This document shows positions 9,405 to 17,715 of a DNA stretch of 64,000 nt, one piece after another. Below the pieces are notes generated by a model. It saw only the letters and a list, made by a program, of their open reading frames with translations, had not been told where the DNA came from and searched no databases. Numbering within the stretch: the stretch's first letter is position 1; the number at the start of each line of letters is the position of its first letter. Origin of the DNA: Candidatus Schekmanbacteria bacterium (lineage in GTDB: Bacteria > Schekmanbacteria > GWA2-38-11 > J061); the NCBI GenBank assembly GCA_016219965.1, contig JACRJM010000002.1, forward strand, positions 186,001 through 250,000. Reading direction: 5' to 3'. The translations under genes were made by a program, and so were the position numbers.

Positions 9405-9599
9405 TTTTTTCTCCTTTCATCAATGTAGTTGTTAATATTAATGTTACCTGTGTTAGTTAATAAGTACAGCTTGCGTCGTTAATTGTTTATTCGTGATAAT
9501 CTCCTCCTCTTTCAGATGGTTAACGTCTGTCCTCTTTTCAAAAACAATTCAAACGCGATAATGCTGTTCGGCGCAGTGTATTGTTATTTTAGAAAACAG

Positions 9600-10661
9600 T
9601 CAGTCTCTGAGAAATACCCTTATATTGCGCGGCCTGATAAAAATATTTTCTCCCTCGCTGAGAGCAAGCTCACGCGAGCGGTCCCGGGTAAGCTCTGCCT
9701 CTACCAGTTCGTTGGTGCCGGGCAGAATAAGCTCGAGGCGCGTTGTTGCCCCGGTGAGCTGAATCCTGAGCACTATTGCTTCCATTTCATCAATATGGTT
9801 TCTTATGCGGTTGACCTCAATGTCATAGGGACGGACGTAGGCAACTGCCGGTATGTTAATAGCTTCACCGTATTCAGGAAGATCTATGCTGATATTCCCT
9901 ATTTTTGCCTGTCCTTCATGTACCCTGCTATGGAAAAGATTTACATTGCCAAGAAAATTATAAACGAAAGGGGTTGAGGGTTTTTCATAAACATCTTCAG
10001 GCGTTCCTGCCTGTTCGATCTGTCCTTCGTTCATCACGACTACCCTGTCTGCTACTTCTAGAGCTTCTTCCTGATCATGGGTTACAAAAACCGATGTTAC
10101 ATGTATCTCGTCATGAAGCCGGCGCAGCCAGCGGCGCAATTCCTCTCTTACCCTTGCATCAAGGGCGCCAAAAGGTTCATCAAGGAGAAGAACTTTTGGC
10201 TCAACAGCAAGAGCCCTTGCAAGGGCTACACGCTGGCGCTGTCCTCCTGAAAGCTGTGAGGGATAACGTGAAGCAAGCTGATCAAGCTGGATAAGTTTTA
10301 GCAGCTTGTGGACTTTATCTTTTATTTCCTCCTTTGATGGACGGAATTTCTTTGGCTTCACTTCAAGCCCGAAGGCAATATTTTTAAATACTGTCATATG
10401 TCTGAATAGTGCGTAATGCTGGAATACAAAACCAACTTGCCTTTCACGGACGCGCTGTCCGGTTGTTTCAACGCCGTCAAAGAGGATTGTCCCCTGGTCA
10501 GGCCGGTCAAGACCTGCGATAATTCTTAACAGCGTTGTCTTTCCTGAGCCTGATGGCCCCAAAAGCGCAACAAGTTCTCCGGATGGAACGTCTAAAGTTA
10601 CATTCTTAAGCGCAGTGAATCCACCGAATGTTTTTGTTACATTGGAGACTTCAATGCCCAT
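9600..10661 (-). CDS. cysA: Sulfate/thiosulfate ABC transporter ATPase
   Basis: Energises sulfate or thiosulfate import at the cytoplasmic face. Walker A GPSGSGKT (about 35-42), Q-loop FQHYALF, signature LSGGQRQR, Walker [12 protein letters not shown] and switch THDQEEALE are all intact. A C-terminal regulatory barrel of the TOBE kind (about 235-353) brings it to the usual CysA length. Last gene of sbp-cysT-cysW-cysA, 13 bp after cysW. Confidence 0.93.
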
Positions 10662-14154: not shown

Positions 14155-14162
14155 ACGACTTC
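14155..14162. repeat. Target-site duplication, left copy
   Basis: ACGACTTC directly abuts the left terminal repeat and is identical to 17708-17715. Eight bases falls in the 8-9 bp range of IS1-family elements. Confidence 0.85.
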
Positions 14163-14182
14163 GGTAGTGGGTCAGTTTGAAA
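14163..14182. repeat. Left terminal inverted repeat
   Basis: GGTAGTGGGTCAGTTTGAAA, perfectly inverted at 17688-17707. The GGTNNTG tip resembles IS1-family ends. Matching stops after the 20th base. Confidence 0.88.
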
Positions 14183-14187
14183 AATAA

Positions 14188-15132
14188 TTAAAGAGAAACT
14201 TCTGTTGAATTTTCTTTTAGTTTATCAAATAAATTATTAAAAGAATCATATAAAGATAAATTATCTTTATTATCTTCTGTAACCTTATCTATTTTGTAAA
14301 CAGGTGATTCATGTCCATGCCTATCAATTTCATAGGTACTCATAAATAAACATTTATCCAATATAATTAATCTAAAAATAGGATGAAATTTACAATAATA
14401 TAATTGAACAGTTCTATCAGAACGTATTTTATTTAATGTTTTAAATTTATCTATAGTATTACAAATTTCTTTTTTAAGATCCTCTTTAGTATAAGGTGGT
14501 AGTATTTTTCTAAGTTGATGTATTCTTTCATTAATCACTTCATCATTGTCTGGATTCAAAATAACACTCTCAACTTTTATCCAATTTCGCTCTCTTAAAA
14601 CATCATAGAAAAGCGATTCTCCTTCTCCTTTCCCTATATATTCATAACCAGCAATTGATAAAAGTTTAATTGTTTCAGAATGAGATAATTCTTCCATTAC
14701 ATCTCTTGAATACTGCTGATTGATGGCAGCAACTCTTAATCTATCTTCATAGATTTTTTTAATTCCCGATTGTTTATTTAACAATTTAACCAACTGTATA
14801 ATTTTATCAGCTTCTGATGTTTTTAATATACCAAGATAAGATTGTATATAAAAGTGTAGGCTAAGATTAGAAGCGAATGAAAACAAAAAAGCTATTATAA
14901 ATTTTACAACAAATGAAAACGTTAGTGAACTTACAGAAATTGAAAACCTAAAAGGAACAGAGAGAGTTATTGTTCTTAATAAAGTTTCTCTCTCTGACTC
15001 TACAAGGAGACAGAGCCATATTATTATTGTCCATATAAAAATATCAAATCTTCGTGGTGATTTTAAAAATTTGGATGGTAAATTATAGAATGTCTCTATT
15101 AATCCTTGTGTGCGGGAGGGGTTTGATTCCAA
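14188..15132 (-). CDS. Passenger membrane protein of unknown function
   Basis: A 314-residue AT-rich ORF ending just inside the left terminal repeat. Two hydrophobic segments lie near the N-terminus (about 30-46 and 68-92), followed by a long charged, mostly helical cytoplasmic-looking region to the C-terminus. It starts at TTG, the only start codon near the top of the frame, with no clear ribosome site. It follows a 55-residue single-helix protein by 27 bp, and both probably come from the promoter at 15357-15385. I do not recognise the family. A membrane-anchored cargo or defence-like pair is possible, but nothing proves it. Confidence 0.6.
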   Translation of the reverse strand: MESNPSRTQGLIETFYNLPSKFLKSPRRFDIFIWTIIIWLCLLVESERETLLRTITLSVPFRFSISVSSLTFSFVVKFIIAFLFSFASNLSLHFYIQSYLGILKTSEADKIIQLVKLLNKQSGIKKIYEDRLRVAAINQQYSRDVMEELSHSETIKLLSIAGYEYIGKGEGESLFYDVLRERNWIKVESVILNPDNDEVINERIHQLRKILPPYTKEDLKKEICNTIDKFKTLNKIRSDRTVQLYYCKFHPIFRLIILDKCLFMSTYEIDRHGHESPVYKIDKVTEDNKDNLSLYDSFNNLFDKLKENSTEVSL

Positions 15133-15159
15133 GATTCAGATTGAATTATTTATCTTGAA

Positions 15160-15327
15160 TTATTCAAGAGATTTGTTTATTTTTTCAATATCAATTACTT
15201 CTGATGGAGAATTTTTTGCAAAAATTTTAGAAGATATTTTTTGCTCTAATTTATTTATAGCAGATGATGGAAAAGTAAAAATTCCAATTATTATCGCTAA
15301 TATTGAAATAATAGATACCAAGTCCAT
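15160..15327 (-). CDS. Small single-helix membrane protein, passenger gene
   Basis: A 55-residue protein with one N-terminal transmembrane helix (MDLVSIISILAIIIGIF) and a charged tail rich in Lys and Ile. The frame extends to an ATG at 15369, but that codon lies upstream of the predicted -10, while the ATG at 15327 has a good AAGGGGAG ribosome site, so the shorter form is chosen. It is the first gene of a pair with the 314-residue membrane protein. Family not recognised. Confidence 0.5.
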   Translation of the reverse strand: MDLVSIISILAIIIGIFTFPSSAINKLEQKISSKIFAKNSPSEVIDIEKINKSLE

Positions 15328-15356
15328 AGTTCTCCCCTTTGTTATTATTTGAGTAA

Positions 15357-15385
15357 ATGATACAAACATGAACCTGCTTCGTCAA
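15357..15385 (-). promoter_or_regulatory. Promoter of the passenger membrane pair
   Basis: On the minus strand TTGACG (15385-15380), a 17-base spacer and TATCAT (15362-15357). It would give a leader of about 25 bases to the ATG at 15327. Unlike the element's other promoters it lacks the CAAGCAT heptamer. Confidence 0.5.
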
Positions 15386-15447
15386 GAATTATTTAATTCT
15401 ATATACTATTTTCACATATTAGAGGGATTAACTATGTTATTTATTGA

Positions 15448-16275
15448 TTATTGTAAATTTAATATTTCTTCTATTTCCCATACATGGTCTGTTATTCCTG
15501 CTTCCATTGCTGGAGTTACTCTTAACGTCTGATGAATCCTACAGAAATTATAATACATGAAATGAAGCGATACTGCATGAATAAGGTTCTCTGCCTTTTT
15601 TGAAAAGGCATTTGTAAGCCTTGTAAATCTTCTCATACTCATACGCATTGTTAAATTTTGGCGTTCAACGAAGCTTGTCGAGGTGTGGTTCAGGTCTGGA
15701 TTGCCTTGTATCTTCATTTTAATACTTCCGGTGCATTGAGCAGGACTATATTTCCTCTCTCCTTCTCTGTCGCCTTCATTGCCATATAGTTTTATAAGCT
15801 GGCTATAATCTATCTGATAGCCGAAGGCACTTTCTACAGCTTCAAGATATGCTCTGTGTCCGTCTGTTGTTAGCTGAACTCTATTCTTTAGCCTACCTGC
15901 CAAATCTTCCATGAACTCGGTTGCTGTTTCTATGTCACGCCTTCCTATTCTCCAACTTGGAACAAGCTTTGTATCAGCGCAAATAGCTGTAAATGTCCAC
16001 ATATTGCCATAGCCGAATTGATCCTTTTTATCTTCCGGCACGTTCTTTTCTTTCGCATAACAGAAAGACCAGATTTCATCACATTGAATTTTCTTACAGG
16101 TAAGATTTACAAATGCCTTGTCTTGATATTCAGAGCAAGCTTTCCCAACATCAGCCAAGAGCTTCAATACTGTTCCTTTAGCCGCTCCTGTCATTCTGCA
16201 AGTGGCTCTGATTGAGTTACCTTCAACCAGTGCGCTTATTATCTGAACTTGTTTTTGAAGAGTTAATTTATTCAT
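15448..16275 (-). CDS. IS1-family transposase, single-ORF type
   Basis: A 275-residue DDE transposase. A helix-turn-helix lies at about 20-42 (NSIRATCRMTGAAKGTVLKL). Catalytic residues fit D66 in QCDEIWSF, D138 in LTTDGHRAY and E204 in TSFVERQN, followed by the RMSMRRFTRLTNAF segment typical of this branch. Unlike classic IS1 it is one uninterrupted frame, with no programmed frameshift needed. The ATG at 16275 lies only 6 bases after the predicted -10, so the mRNA would be leaderless and poorly translated, a plausible brake on transposition. It lies centrally in the element, transcribed away from the P63C gene. Confidence 0.92.
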   Translation of the reverse strand: MNKLTLQKQVQIISALVEGNSIRATCRMTGAAKGTVLKLLADVGKACSEYQDKAFVNLTCKKIQCDEIWSFCYAKEKNVPEDKKDQFGYGNMWTFTAICADTKLVPSWRIGRRDIETATEFMEDLAGRLKNRVQLTTDGHRAYLEAVESAFGYQIDYSQLIKLYGNEGDREGERKYSPAQCTGSIKMKIQGNPDLNHTSTSFVERQNLTMRMSMRRFTRLTNAFSKKAENLIHAVSLHFMYYNFCRIHQTLRVTPAMEAGITDHVWEIEEILNLQ

Positions 16276-16281
16276 ATATAC

Positions 16282-16310
16282 AATATACTTGACCGCTCAA
16301 GCATTGTCAA
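16282..16310 (-). promoter_or_regulatory. Transposase promoter
   Basis: On the minus strand a consensus TTGACA (16310-16305), 17-base spacer and TATATT (16287-16282). The heptamer ATGCTTG abuts the -35, and CTTGA/TCAAG form a small inverted repeat within the spacer (16289-16302). Transcription should start at or within one or two bases of the ATG. Confidence 0.65.
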
Positions 16311-16319
16311 GTGTTTTTC

Positions 16320-16402
16320 TGCAAGCATTAAAATAATAATTGACAATATATGCTTGCAAATATTATAATGCAAGCATAATCTTAACTTTGAGGTGCAAGC
16401 AT
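16320..16402 (+). promoter_or_regulatory. P63C-gene promoter and repeated operator
   Basis: Plus-strand TTGACA (16340-16345), 18-base spacer, TATAAT (16364-16369). The 9-mer TGCAAGCAT occurs at 16320-16328, inverted at 16350-16358, at 16369-16377, and at 16394-16402 over the start codon. The middle two form a perfect palindrome with a 10-base centre covering the -10. A GAGGT ribosome site (16390-16394) is partly covered by the last copy. This layout strongly suggests repression by a DNA-binding protein. Confidence 0.65.
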
Positions 16403-17393
16403 GAATGACAAAGATAGTGGAAAAGCAAAAGGTGGATATGCACGGGCAGCAACCTTAACTCCTGAAGCACGCAAAGAAATTGCAAAGAGAGCTGCTGCTA
16501 CTCGGTGGGATATTGGAGATAAAGAAAATCCAATAGCTATTAATGAAGGTGAACTACCATTTGGAGATATTACTCTTGACTGCTATGTCTTAAAAGATAG
16601 GCGACGACTATTTCATAAAAAAGCATTAGCAAAAGGCTTAGGCATGAAATCTGAAGGTGGCAATGTTTTTCTTAGAACTTTCAATAGTAAAGGACTGGGA
16701 TCAGTAATCCCACAAGAAACACGCCAAAAACTTGATAATCCTATTGTTTTCAAGACGTTACGTGGTGATCTCGCACATGGATATGAAGCTTTAACACTTA
16801 TCGAGGTATGTGATGCAATTTTTGAAGCAAAAAAACTTGGTATATTAAAACCAAATCAATATTTTTTAGCTATGCAAGCTGAAATAATAATAAGATCGTC
16901 TGCTAAAATTGGCATTATTGCCCTTGTCGATGAAGCAACAGGTTATATAAAAGATAAGAAAAAAGAAGAATACAGAGAGCTTTTCAAAGAATTTATACGG
17001 CAAGAATGTAGAGAATGGGAAAAAGAATTTCCAGATCAATTTTTTGATGTTCTTTATATGTTATATAATTTGCGGCGACTCTATAAAAATAAACATCCGC
17101 AGTTTTTTTCTAAATTTATAAGGAAATACGTTTATACGCCTCTTGCCAATAGTAATGGTGCTATCCTTGAAATGTTAGACGAAAAAAATCCTGTTATTTA
17201 TAAAAGTGGAGGAAGAAAATACAAATTATTTCAATTTTTAACTGATCAGGTTGGGATTCCTGCATTCAGGGCACATCTTTGGCAAATTATTGGTATAGCA
17301 AATGCAACAAAAACAAAAAAAGCATTCGATAAAGGATTTTCGCAAGCATTTCCGCAGTCAGGAGAACAATTACCTTTATTTGATTTAGATTAA
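16401..17393 (+). CDS. P63C-domain protein, transposon passenger
   Basis: A 330-residue protein. The N-terminus has a KGGYARAATLTPEARKEIA..AA..RW motif, shared with the small gene at the right end. The C-terminal half resembles the phage P63C domain: FIRQECREWEKEFPDQFF, a KFIRKYVYTPLA segment, FLTDQVGIPAFRAHLWQIIG and the ending AFPQSGEQLPLF. P63C proteins are found in phages and mobile elements; their biochemical role is not established. The gene starts at the ATG with a GAGGT ribosome site 6 bases away, and its stop codon overlaps that of the convergent small gene. The palindromic promoter suggests tight control. Confidence 0.75.
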   Translation: MNDKDSGKAKGGYARAATLTPEARKEIAKRAAATRWDIGDKENPIAINEGELPFGDITLDCYVLKDRRRLFHKKALAKGLGMKSEGGNVFLRTFNSKGLGSVIPQETRQKLDNPIVFKTLRGDLAHGYEALTLIEVCDAIFEAKKLGILKPNQYFLAMQAEIIIRSSAKIGIIALVDEATGYIKDKKKEEYRELFKEFIRQECREWEKEFPDQFFDVLYMLYNLRRLYKNKHPQFFSKFIRKYVYTPLANSNGAILEMLDEKNPVIYKSGGRKYKLFQFLTDQVGIPAFRAHLWQIIGIANATKTKKAFDKGFSQAFPQSGEQLPLFDLD

Positions 17394-17641
17394 GGATTCT
17401 TATTTTTTAGATTTGTCCATCGTGCTTTAGCCGCTTTTTGTGCTATCTCTTTTCTTTTTTTTGCAGATAGTTTCTCAGCACGTGCTTTGCCGCCTTTTAA
17501 TCCACCAAGACGACCGAGAGCGACAGCAGCAGGATTTTTTGCAGGAATTACCGGAGCGGATTCTTTCTTTTCTTCTGTTGTTTGATCAACTATATTCTTT
17601 GCCAGAGCATTTATATCTTGAGGTTGTTTTTGTTTCTTCAT
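17390..17641 (-). CDS. Small basic KARW-motif protein, possible element regulator
   Basis: An 83-residue, very basic protein ending in a GGLKGGKARAEKLSAKKR..IAQKAAKARW motif, close to the N-terminus of the P63C protein. The frame extends to 17677, but the promoter -10 at 17649-17654 and the promoter's position fix the ATG at 17641; the mRNA would then be leaderless. Such Ala/Lys/Arg-rich motifs are common in small DNA-associated proteins of phages and plasmids. It could be the factor that binds the CAAGCAT sites of the element, but this is inference. Confidence 0.6.
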   Translation of the reverse strand: MKKQKQPQDINALAKNIVDQTTEEKKESAPVIPAKNPAAVALGRLGGLKGGKARAEKLSAKKRKEIAQKAAKARWTNLKNKNP

Positions 17642-17648
17642 GCTTATC

Positions 17649-17677
17649 AATATAGCATGAGCGGACAAGCATTTCAA
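17649..17677 (-). promoter_or_regulatory. Promoter of the small basic-protein gene
   Basis: On the minus strand TTGAAA (17677-17672), 17-base spacer, TATATT (17654-17649), then 7 bases to the ATG. The heptamer ATGCTTG (17672-17666) sits directly after the -35, as in the transposase promoter, and the spacers are alike. Confidence 0.6.
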
Positions 17678-17687
17678 GGGGAGAGAA

Positions 17688-17707
17688 TTTCAAACTGACC
17701 CACTACC
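17688..17707. repeat. Right terminal inverted repeat
   Basis: Reverse complement of 14163-14182 over 20 bases with no mismatch; followed at once by the target duplication. Confidence 0.88.
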
Positions 17708-17715
17708 ACGACTTC
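17708..17715. repeat. Target-site duplication, right copy
   Basis: ACGACTTC, identical to 14155-14162. The remaining 116 bp to lipA hold a small CAGCA/TGCTG hairpin and the TTGGAGA ribosome site of lipA. Confidence 0.85.

Follow-up and report, generated by a model that had tools for sequence, protein, structure and literature searches.

KARW, a predicted autoregulator, as the second backbone gene of a cross-phylum family of IS1-like transposons with defence-type cargo

The window analysed here, a whole stretch of 64,000 nt (contig JACRJM010000002.1, positions 186,001-250,000) from a 3.58-Mb Candidatus Schekmanbacteria genome, carries a 3,545-bp transposon delimited by inverted ends at 14163-14182 (+) and 17688-17707 (-). 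This element belongs to a family, dispersed over many phyla, in which a small gene, KARW, is a second backbone gene besides that of the transposase (tnp), and not cargo, and in which the cargo is richer than the flanking genes in restriction, toxin-antitoxin and anti-phage genes. We consider it probable, on the strength of sequence comparisons, that these elements are autonomous IS1-like transposons with a two-gene backbone and exchangeable defence-type cargo, and that KARW is a regulator repressing both tnp and its own promoter. The ends and the backbone of the window element comprise the following features.

14155-14162: left target-site duplication, ACGACTTC, identical to 17708-17715.
14163-14182, + strand: left terminal inverted repeat, GGTAGTGGGTCAGTTTGAAA, perfect over 20 bp, with the same 20-mer in relatives.
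15448-16275, - strand: tnp, IS1-like DDE transposase of 275 aa without zinc-finger part, aligning from about position 43 of the IS1 model.
16282-16310, - strand: tnp promoter, with -35 box TTGACA, a 17-nt spacer and -10 box TATATT ending 6 nt before the ATG.
16286-16303, - strand: tnp operator, TGCTTGAGCGGTCAAGTA, palindromic, between the -35 and -10 boxes, an exact match to the family consensus.
17390-17641, - strand: KARW, encoding a basic 83-aa protein, predicted autoregulator.
17649-17677, - strand: KARW promoter, with -35 box TTGAAA, a 17-nt spacer holding the operator and -10 box TATATT, 7 nt from the ATG.
17654-17671, - strand: KARW operator, TGCTTGTCCGCTCATGCT, 3 mismatches to the consensus.
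17688-17707, - strand: right terminal inverted repeat, perfect 20-bp partner of the left end GGTAGTGGGTCAGTTTGAAA.
17708-17715: right target-site duplication, ACGACTTC, 8 bp, same as the left copy.

An earlier note on this DNA had described perfect 20-bp inverted ends, an 8-bp duplication and an element of about 3.5 kb with an intact DDE transposase, inserted recently and cleanly. Ends and duplication are indeed where it placed them, the transposase frame is open with its catalytic residues kept, and a recent, clean insertion is supported. The exact 20-mer of the end occurs at only two places in the genome, both at this element, which is present in a single copy, and the backward pattern used as a control occurs nowhere; a third site resembling the ends, with 3 mismatches to the 20-mer, was taken as chance. 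The G+C content is 32.7% in the element versus 42-45% in its flanks. No match to the joined flanks, as expected of an empty site, was found in the three closest genomes examined, none of which keeps the neighbourhood.

A scan with the transposase as query, restricted to one genome per species, yielded 80 loci in many phyla (Aminicenantes, Deltaproteobacteria, Nitrospirae, Omnitrophota, Acidobacteria, Zixibacteria, Patescibacteria, Planctomycetes, Alpha-, Beta- and Gammaproteobacteria, Chloroflexi and others). The same ends, located by script, surround the transposase in most loci not truncated at the edge of a contig and bound 57 of the 80; an exact 8-bp duplication is found in 47 of these 57, and a 9-bp one in one more. 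Together with the window element, they form the set of 58 bounded elements used below, which are 1.9-5.3 kb long. Relatives are also carried by plasmids of cultured Mesorhizobium loti, Methylocapsa, Hoeflea and Acidiphilium and by viral contigs, and the transposase is present in 5 of 145 sampled genomes, that of the window included. All the traits that characterize the KARW transposon family, namely the 20-bp ends, the IS1-like transposase, the KARW gene and the TGCTTG operators, are found in the window element. Searching other genomes for the ends and the transposase, as the earlier note had proposed, recovered the ends together with cargo many times over.

That note had also listed four non-transposase genes as passengers, a pair encoding transmembrane (TM) proteins, a P63C gene and KARW. 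The gene list was right but KARW is no passenger, being present in 57 of the 58 bounded elements and in 10 out of 10 full-length relatives, taken from viral contigs and from plasmids of cultured bacteria, that had no part in building the profile. Its usual place is immediately within the end upstream of tnp. It shares the strand of tnp in 56 of the 57 elements, its conserved part starts at most about 115 bp from the outer end in 48 of them, and the flanks of the bounded elements carry no KARW, except for the second copy of a tandem. Furthermore, an independent search of 290 genomes with the KARW profile gave 11 full-length matches, of which nine belong to elements, one of these decayed, that have tnp and one or both ends, while the other two lie in remnants, and the distances between KARW proteins correlate with those between transposases (r 0.41, the best of 2,000 permutations reaching 0.22). 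The protein displays an N-terminal D-N-LA-IV-AT block and a C-terminal GG-KGGKARA-L-R-EIA-KAA-ARW block, and AlphaFold predicts helices at residues 10-21, 37-49, 51-57 and 60-81 (mean pLDDT 82.5, pTM 0.39); in the window, a longer KARW frame (17390-17677) starts at an upstream TTG. BLAST of KARW against plasmids and phages gave no match, probably owing to the low-complexity filter, and its relatives were therefore searched with a hidden Markov model. A sequence search of the PDB matched neither KARW nor the transposase nor the membrane protein of the cargo.

Two further KARW genes deserve mention. The one of a Mesorhizobium loti plasmid element (L092:2075-2284) is annotated 'histone H1', and a decayed one without ends or tnp (L136:5143-5343), in a genome from the same order as that of the window, is a sign of an older element.

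Alignment of the regions upstream of tnp revealed a palindromic operator that the earlier note had not noticed, TGCTTGASCGSTCAAGYA, which usually fills the 17-nt spacer between TTGACA and TATAAT. With up to 3 mismatches, it was found in 33 of 53 regions upstream of tnp and in 20 of 53 upstream of KARW, versus none of 530 shuffles in either case. When entire loci are counted, 73 sites occur in 161 kb of elements versus 2 in 478 kb of flanks, and the full operator-promoter pattern has three matches in 2.9 million viral contigs, all preceding this transposase. In most cases 6-8 nt separate the end of the -10 box from the ATG of tnp, a distance so short that the transcript probably lacks a leader and is poorly translated.

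The same half-site accompanies the KARW motif outside the transposon backbone. Indeed, the C-terminal KARW block is shared by the N-terminus of P63C proteins, whose genes are found in transposons, phages and plasmids. TGCTTG sites (counted as TGCTTG[AC] or its complement within -200 to +90) precede 22 of the 24 P63C genes with the block, most of which have 3-5 sites, versus none of the seven without it (Fisher p 1.4e-5, or 4e-5 with four close relatives removed); the motif was called by reading the sequences by eye, those of L008, Lodos, Pkon1, Deinococcus and Kuwabara counting as motif-bearing. Of these 24 genes, seven are borne by transposons and the others by phages, plasmids and a single genome (Proteobacteria, Gordonia phages, Deinococcus). 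Such sites also mark the start of two stand-alone KARW-motif genes that have no tnp or P63C in their neighbourhood: TTGACA-A-TGCTTACCCTGTAAGCA-TATAAT (TGCTTA..TAAGCA) at L142:5180-5602 and two TGCTTGC sites at L143:5084-5245. Since the KARW motif is common to all site-positive cases, we infer that it is the part that reads DNA, an undescribed DNA-binding domain through which KARW, tnp and P63C would be autoregulated. We also lean towards a broader proposal, in which the motif would represent a new class of sequence-specific DNA-binding domain (half-site TGCTTG), acting as autoregulator in cross-phylum, defence-carrying IS1-like transposons and fused to P63C in prophages and plasmids; transposon and prophage P63C genes may then share one regulatory code.

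The family layout is KARW-[slot 1]-tnp-[slot 2]-end, with a rarer third slot outside KARW. The earlier note held IS1-family elements with several passengers to be rarely described; in this family passengers are the rule, no cargo-free full-length copy being found among the 58. Pfam domains in the cargo of relatives include restriction types (BglII with MT-A70, MmeI, N4/N6 methylase with Mrr) and HigB, PIN, PemK/MazF, Fic, NYN, SocA/Panacea, AbiEii-type ATPase, ImmA/IrrE peptidase, DUF3800 and P63C; no Pfam match was obtained for 34 of the 60 cargo proteins scanned singly. With PADLOC, 120 cargo proteins matched 237 families versus 45 for 120 length-matched flank genes of the same loci, but one protein can match many families and member counts are a fairer comparison: PD-Lambda-2_B is matched by seven cargo proteins, RmrA by five and capP by five, whereas the flank families are each found in one protein. 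PD-lambda-2 is a three-gene anti-phage system of HigB/HigA-peptidase type (PMC9519451), and RmrA is the protease antitoxin of RosmerTA (PMC10440598); both are absent from the window element, and the several relatives whose cargo matches these models are candidate carriers. Elements whose transposases are 90-93% identical carry different cargo (L008 and L009, L053 and L055), which indicates that cargo is exchanged.

Under the mechanism that we favour, the transposase acts on the 20-bp ends and generates the 8-bp target duplications, as the anatomy of the window copy and of dozens of relatives shows. KARW would bind the palindrome of TGCTTG half-sites present in both the tnp and the KARW promoter, repress the two and keep transposition rare; it is the position of the operator that points to a repressor rather than to an activator or an architectural factor. 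The cargo, in which modules for restriction, toxin-antitoxin and anti-phage functions predominate, would benefit the carrier or punish the loss of the element. Several observations weigh against this proposal. About a third of the tnp promoters, many of them alphaproteobacterial, have at most the TGCTTGAC half-site. The association between operator and KARW is correlational, and its sequences are related, close relatives having been only partly removed. The P63C proteins of Gordonia phage Kuwabara (L150:753-1796) and of L167 have the KARW motif and a longer N-terminus but no TGCTTG site upstream; they may read another site. The five IS1-like transposases without KARW, none of which has the operator, are distant and hence weak evidence. 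Lastly, a fold search with the KARW model gave no match in the PDB, and searches of plasmids, viral contigs and 290 genomes returned no relative of the 314-aa membrane protein of the window element.

The operator could instead be bound by an N-terminal helix-turn-helix (HTH) of the transposase, KARW having another role, for example an architectural one at the ends, like that of a histone. The transposase does have an HTH-like N-terminus (weakly matching the HTH of terminase small subunits), the operator lies at tnp, and InsA of IS1 represses its own promoter. However, TGCTTG sites are also found before the P63C genes of phages and plasmids and before the two stand-alone KARW-motif genes, with no transposase near; the common factor is the KARW motif, and the operator is missing from KARW-less relatives, which makes this alternative unlikely. 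It is quite improbable that KARW serves the cargo as antitoxin or immunity protein and persists because its loss is costly: small basic proteins beside toxins are often antitoxins and many cargo genes are toxin-like, but KARW stays conserved across elements with unrelated cargo, its position is fixed by the end and not by a given toxin, and an antitoxin often comes with the cargo itself (HigB with HTH proteins; RES-Xre in L095). We give very little credence to an ordinary IS1-type insertion that gained neighbouring genes by chance, with themeless cargo. Such a view could draw on the 34 cargo frames without family match and on the insertion sequences with occasional passenger genes (tIS) already known (according to a passage of PMC7986276 that cites Siguier 2009), but it leaves unexplained the near universality of KARW, the systematic presence of cargo in full-length copies, an operator common across phyla and the enrichment of defence models in cargo over matched flank genes.

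The best family match of the transposase is IS1, as the earlier note had it; 'IS1-like' is nevertheless safer, both IS1 models scoring below their curated cut-offs (NF033558, 56.5 bits for a cut-off of 100; PF03400, 23.3 bits for 24.1). The IS1595 model NF033547 gives 23.3 bits for a cut-off of 75. Residues D66, D138 and E204 are almost invariant among 88 relatives, and those of cultured bacteria are annotated 'IS1 family transposase'. The ends starting with GGT and the 8-bp duplication agree with IS1 (GGT; 8-9 bp), whereas the window transposase is encoded by a single open frame, with neither the InsA/InsB frameshift nor the N-terminal zinc-finger part, and each full-length copy seen carries additional genes. 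The IS1595 family and tIS elements are similar in having a transposase of a related superfamily and passenger genes, but the IS1595 model scores far lower than that of IS1, and we know of no conserved KARW gene or shared operator in them. Tn3-family transposons also carry toxin-antitoxin passengers, tied to the transposition module and proposed to regulate it (PMC7157771), but their transposase is unrelated, the conserved extra gene of the present family is KARW, and its cargo includes restriction-modification and anti-phage systems too.

The cargo of the window element consists of a P63C gene, preceded by a TGCTTGC array of its own, and an orphan pair of membrane-protein genes.

14188-15132, - strand: 314-aa cargo protein in slot 2, between the 3' end of tnp and the terminal inverted repeat, with two TM-like segments.
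15160-15369, - strand: 69-aa cargo protein with a single TM-like segment at its N-terminus; its gene lies upstream of that of the 314-aa protein, in the same orientation.
16321-16401: four GCAAGCA/TGCTTGC sites before P63C (16321, 16351, 16370, 16395).
16401-17393, + strand: P63C cargo in slot 1, 330 aa, with KARW-type N-terminal motif (PF10546).

The P63C protein matches PF10546 with 63.3 bits (cut-off 26.1, E 3e-17) and has full-length homologues in phages (phrog_2384) that include the KARW-type N-terminus; its identity to orf23 of Salmonella phage ST104 is 46.7% over the full length. Unlike the transposon-borne copy, the phage genes lie in immunity or integrase regions: ORF23 of ST104 is directly downstream of the cI repressor, the gene of Kuwabara follows the immunity repressor and that of Petra lies within the integrase/repressor cassette, while those of 611R6 and Pkon1 adjoin Arc-type genes. 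Such positions are those of genes expressed from the resident prophage, where exclusion genes are common. By analogy, P63C might be an exclusion or defence gene of prophage type, a tentative assignment that is our best guess, and would be autoregulated via its N-terminal domain. The earlier note thought a possible phage- or element-borne function worth testing. P63C is a recurrent, optional cargo shared with phages and plasmids; its occurrence without the ends, which that note would have held against the element, therefore does not refute it. Two plasmid P63C genes (L156, L157) adjoin restriction or methylase genes, the neighbours being, for one, a LlaMI-type restriction endonuclease gene and, for the other, AAA ATPase and DNA methyltransferase genes on either side. 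Homology of P63C to BstA was not supported, PMC8585504 giving only a KilA-N-like domain by remote homology. For the 314-aa protein, a single-sequence AlphaFold model (pLDDT 38) was not used, and the impression of a phospholipase-D-like tail was dropped.

If the proposal is correct, the family is a widespread small vehicle moving restriction, toxin-antitoxin and anti-phage genes between phyla, now mostly annotated piecemeal as 'IS1 family transposase', 'histone H1' and 'hypothetical protein'. A common small-protein motif would gain a likely function, tied to a precise DNA site, and the combination of ends, KARW and operator would provide a search handle for new defence genes. No paper describing these ends, or a KARW gene conserved among IS1-type transposons, was found in the open-licence literature, a search that did not cover ISfinder.

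Some loci also bear traces of the activity or decay of these elements. A tandem pair of identical 2,795-bp elements, separated and flanked by the 8-bp TGTGGTTC (L058:4115-9712), could be a recent rearrangement, an insertion into the duplication of the element itself or an assembly artefact. Two contigs, L008 and L028 (= L137), consist of an element from end to end plus one base, which suggests that the sampled population contains several copies, inserted at different places. Finally, L091:379-1332 and L182 (about 9497-9677) have internal deletions leaving only a tnp fragment, with one end, or both ends and the duplication, kept; these derivatives are likely non-autonomous copies.

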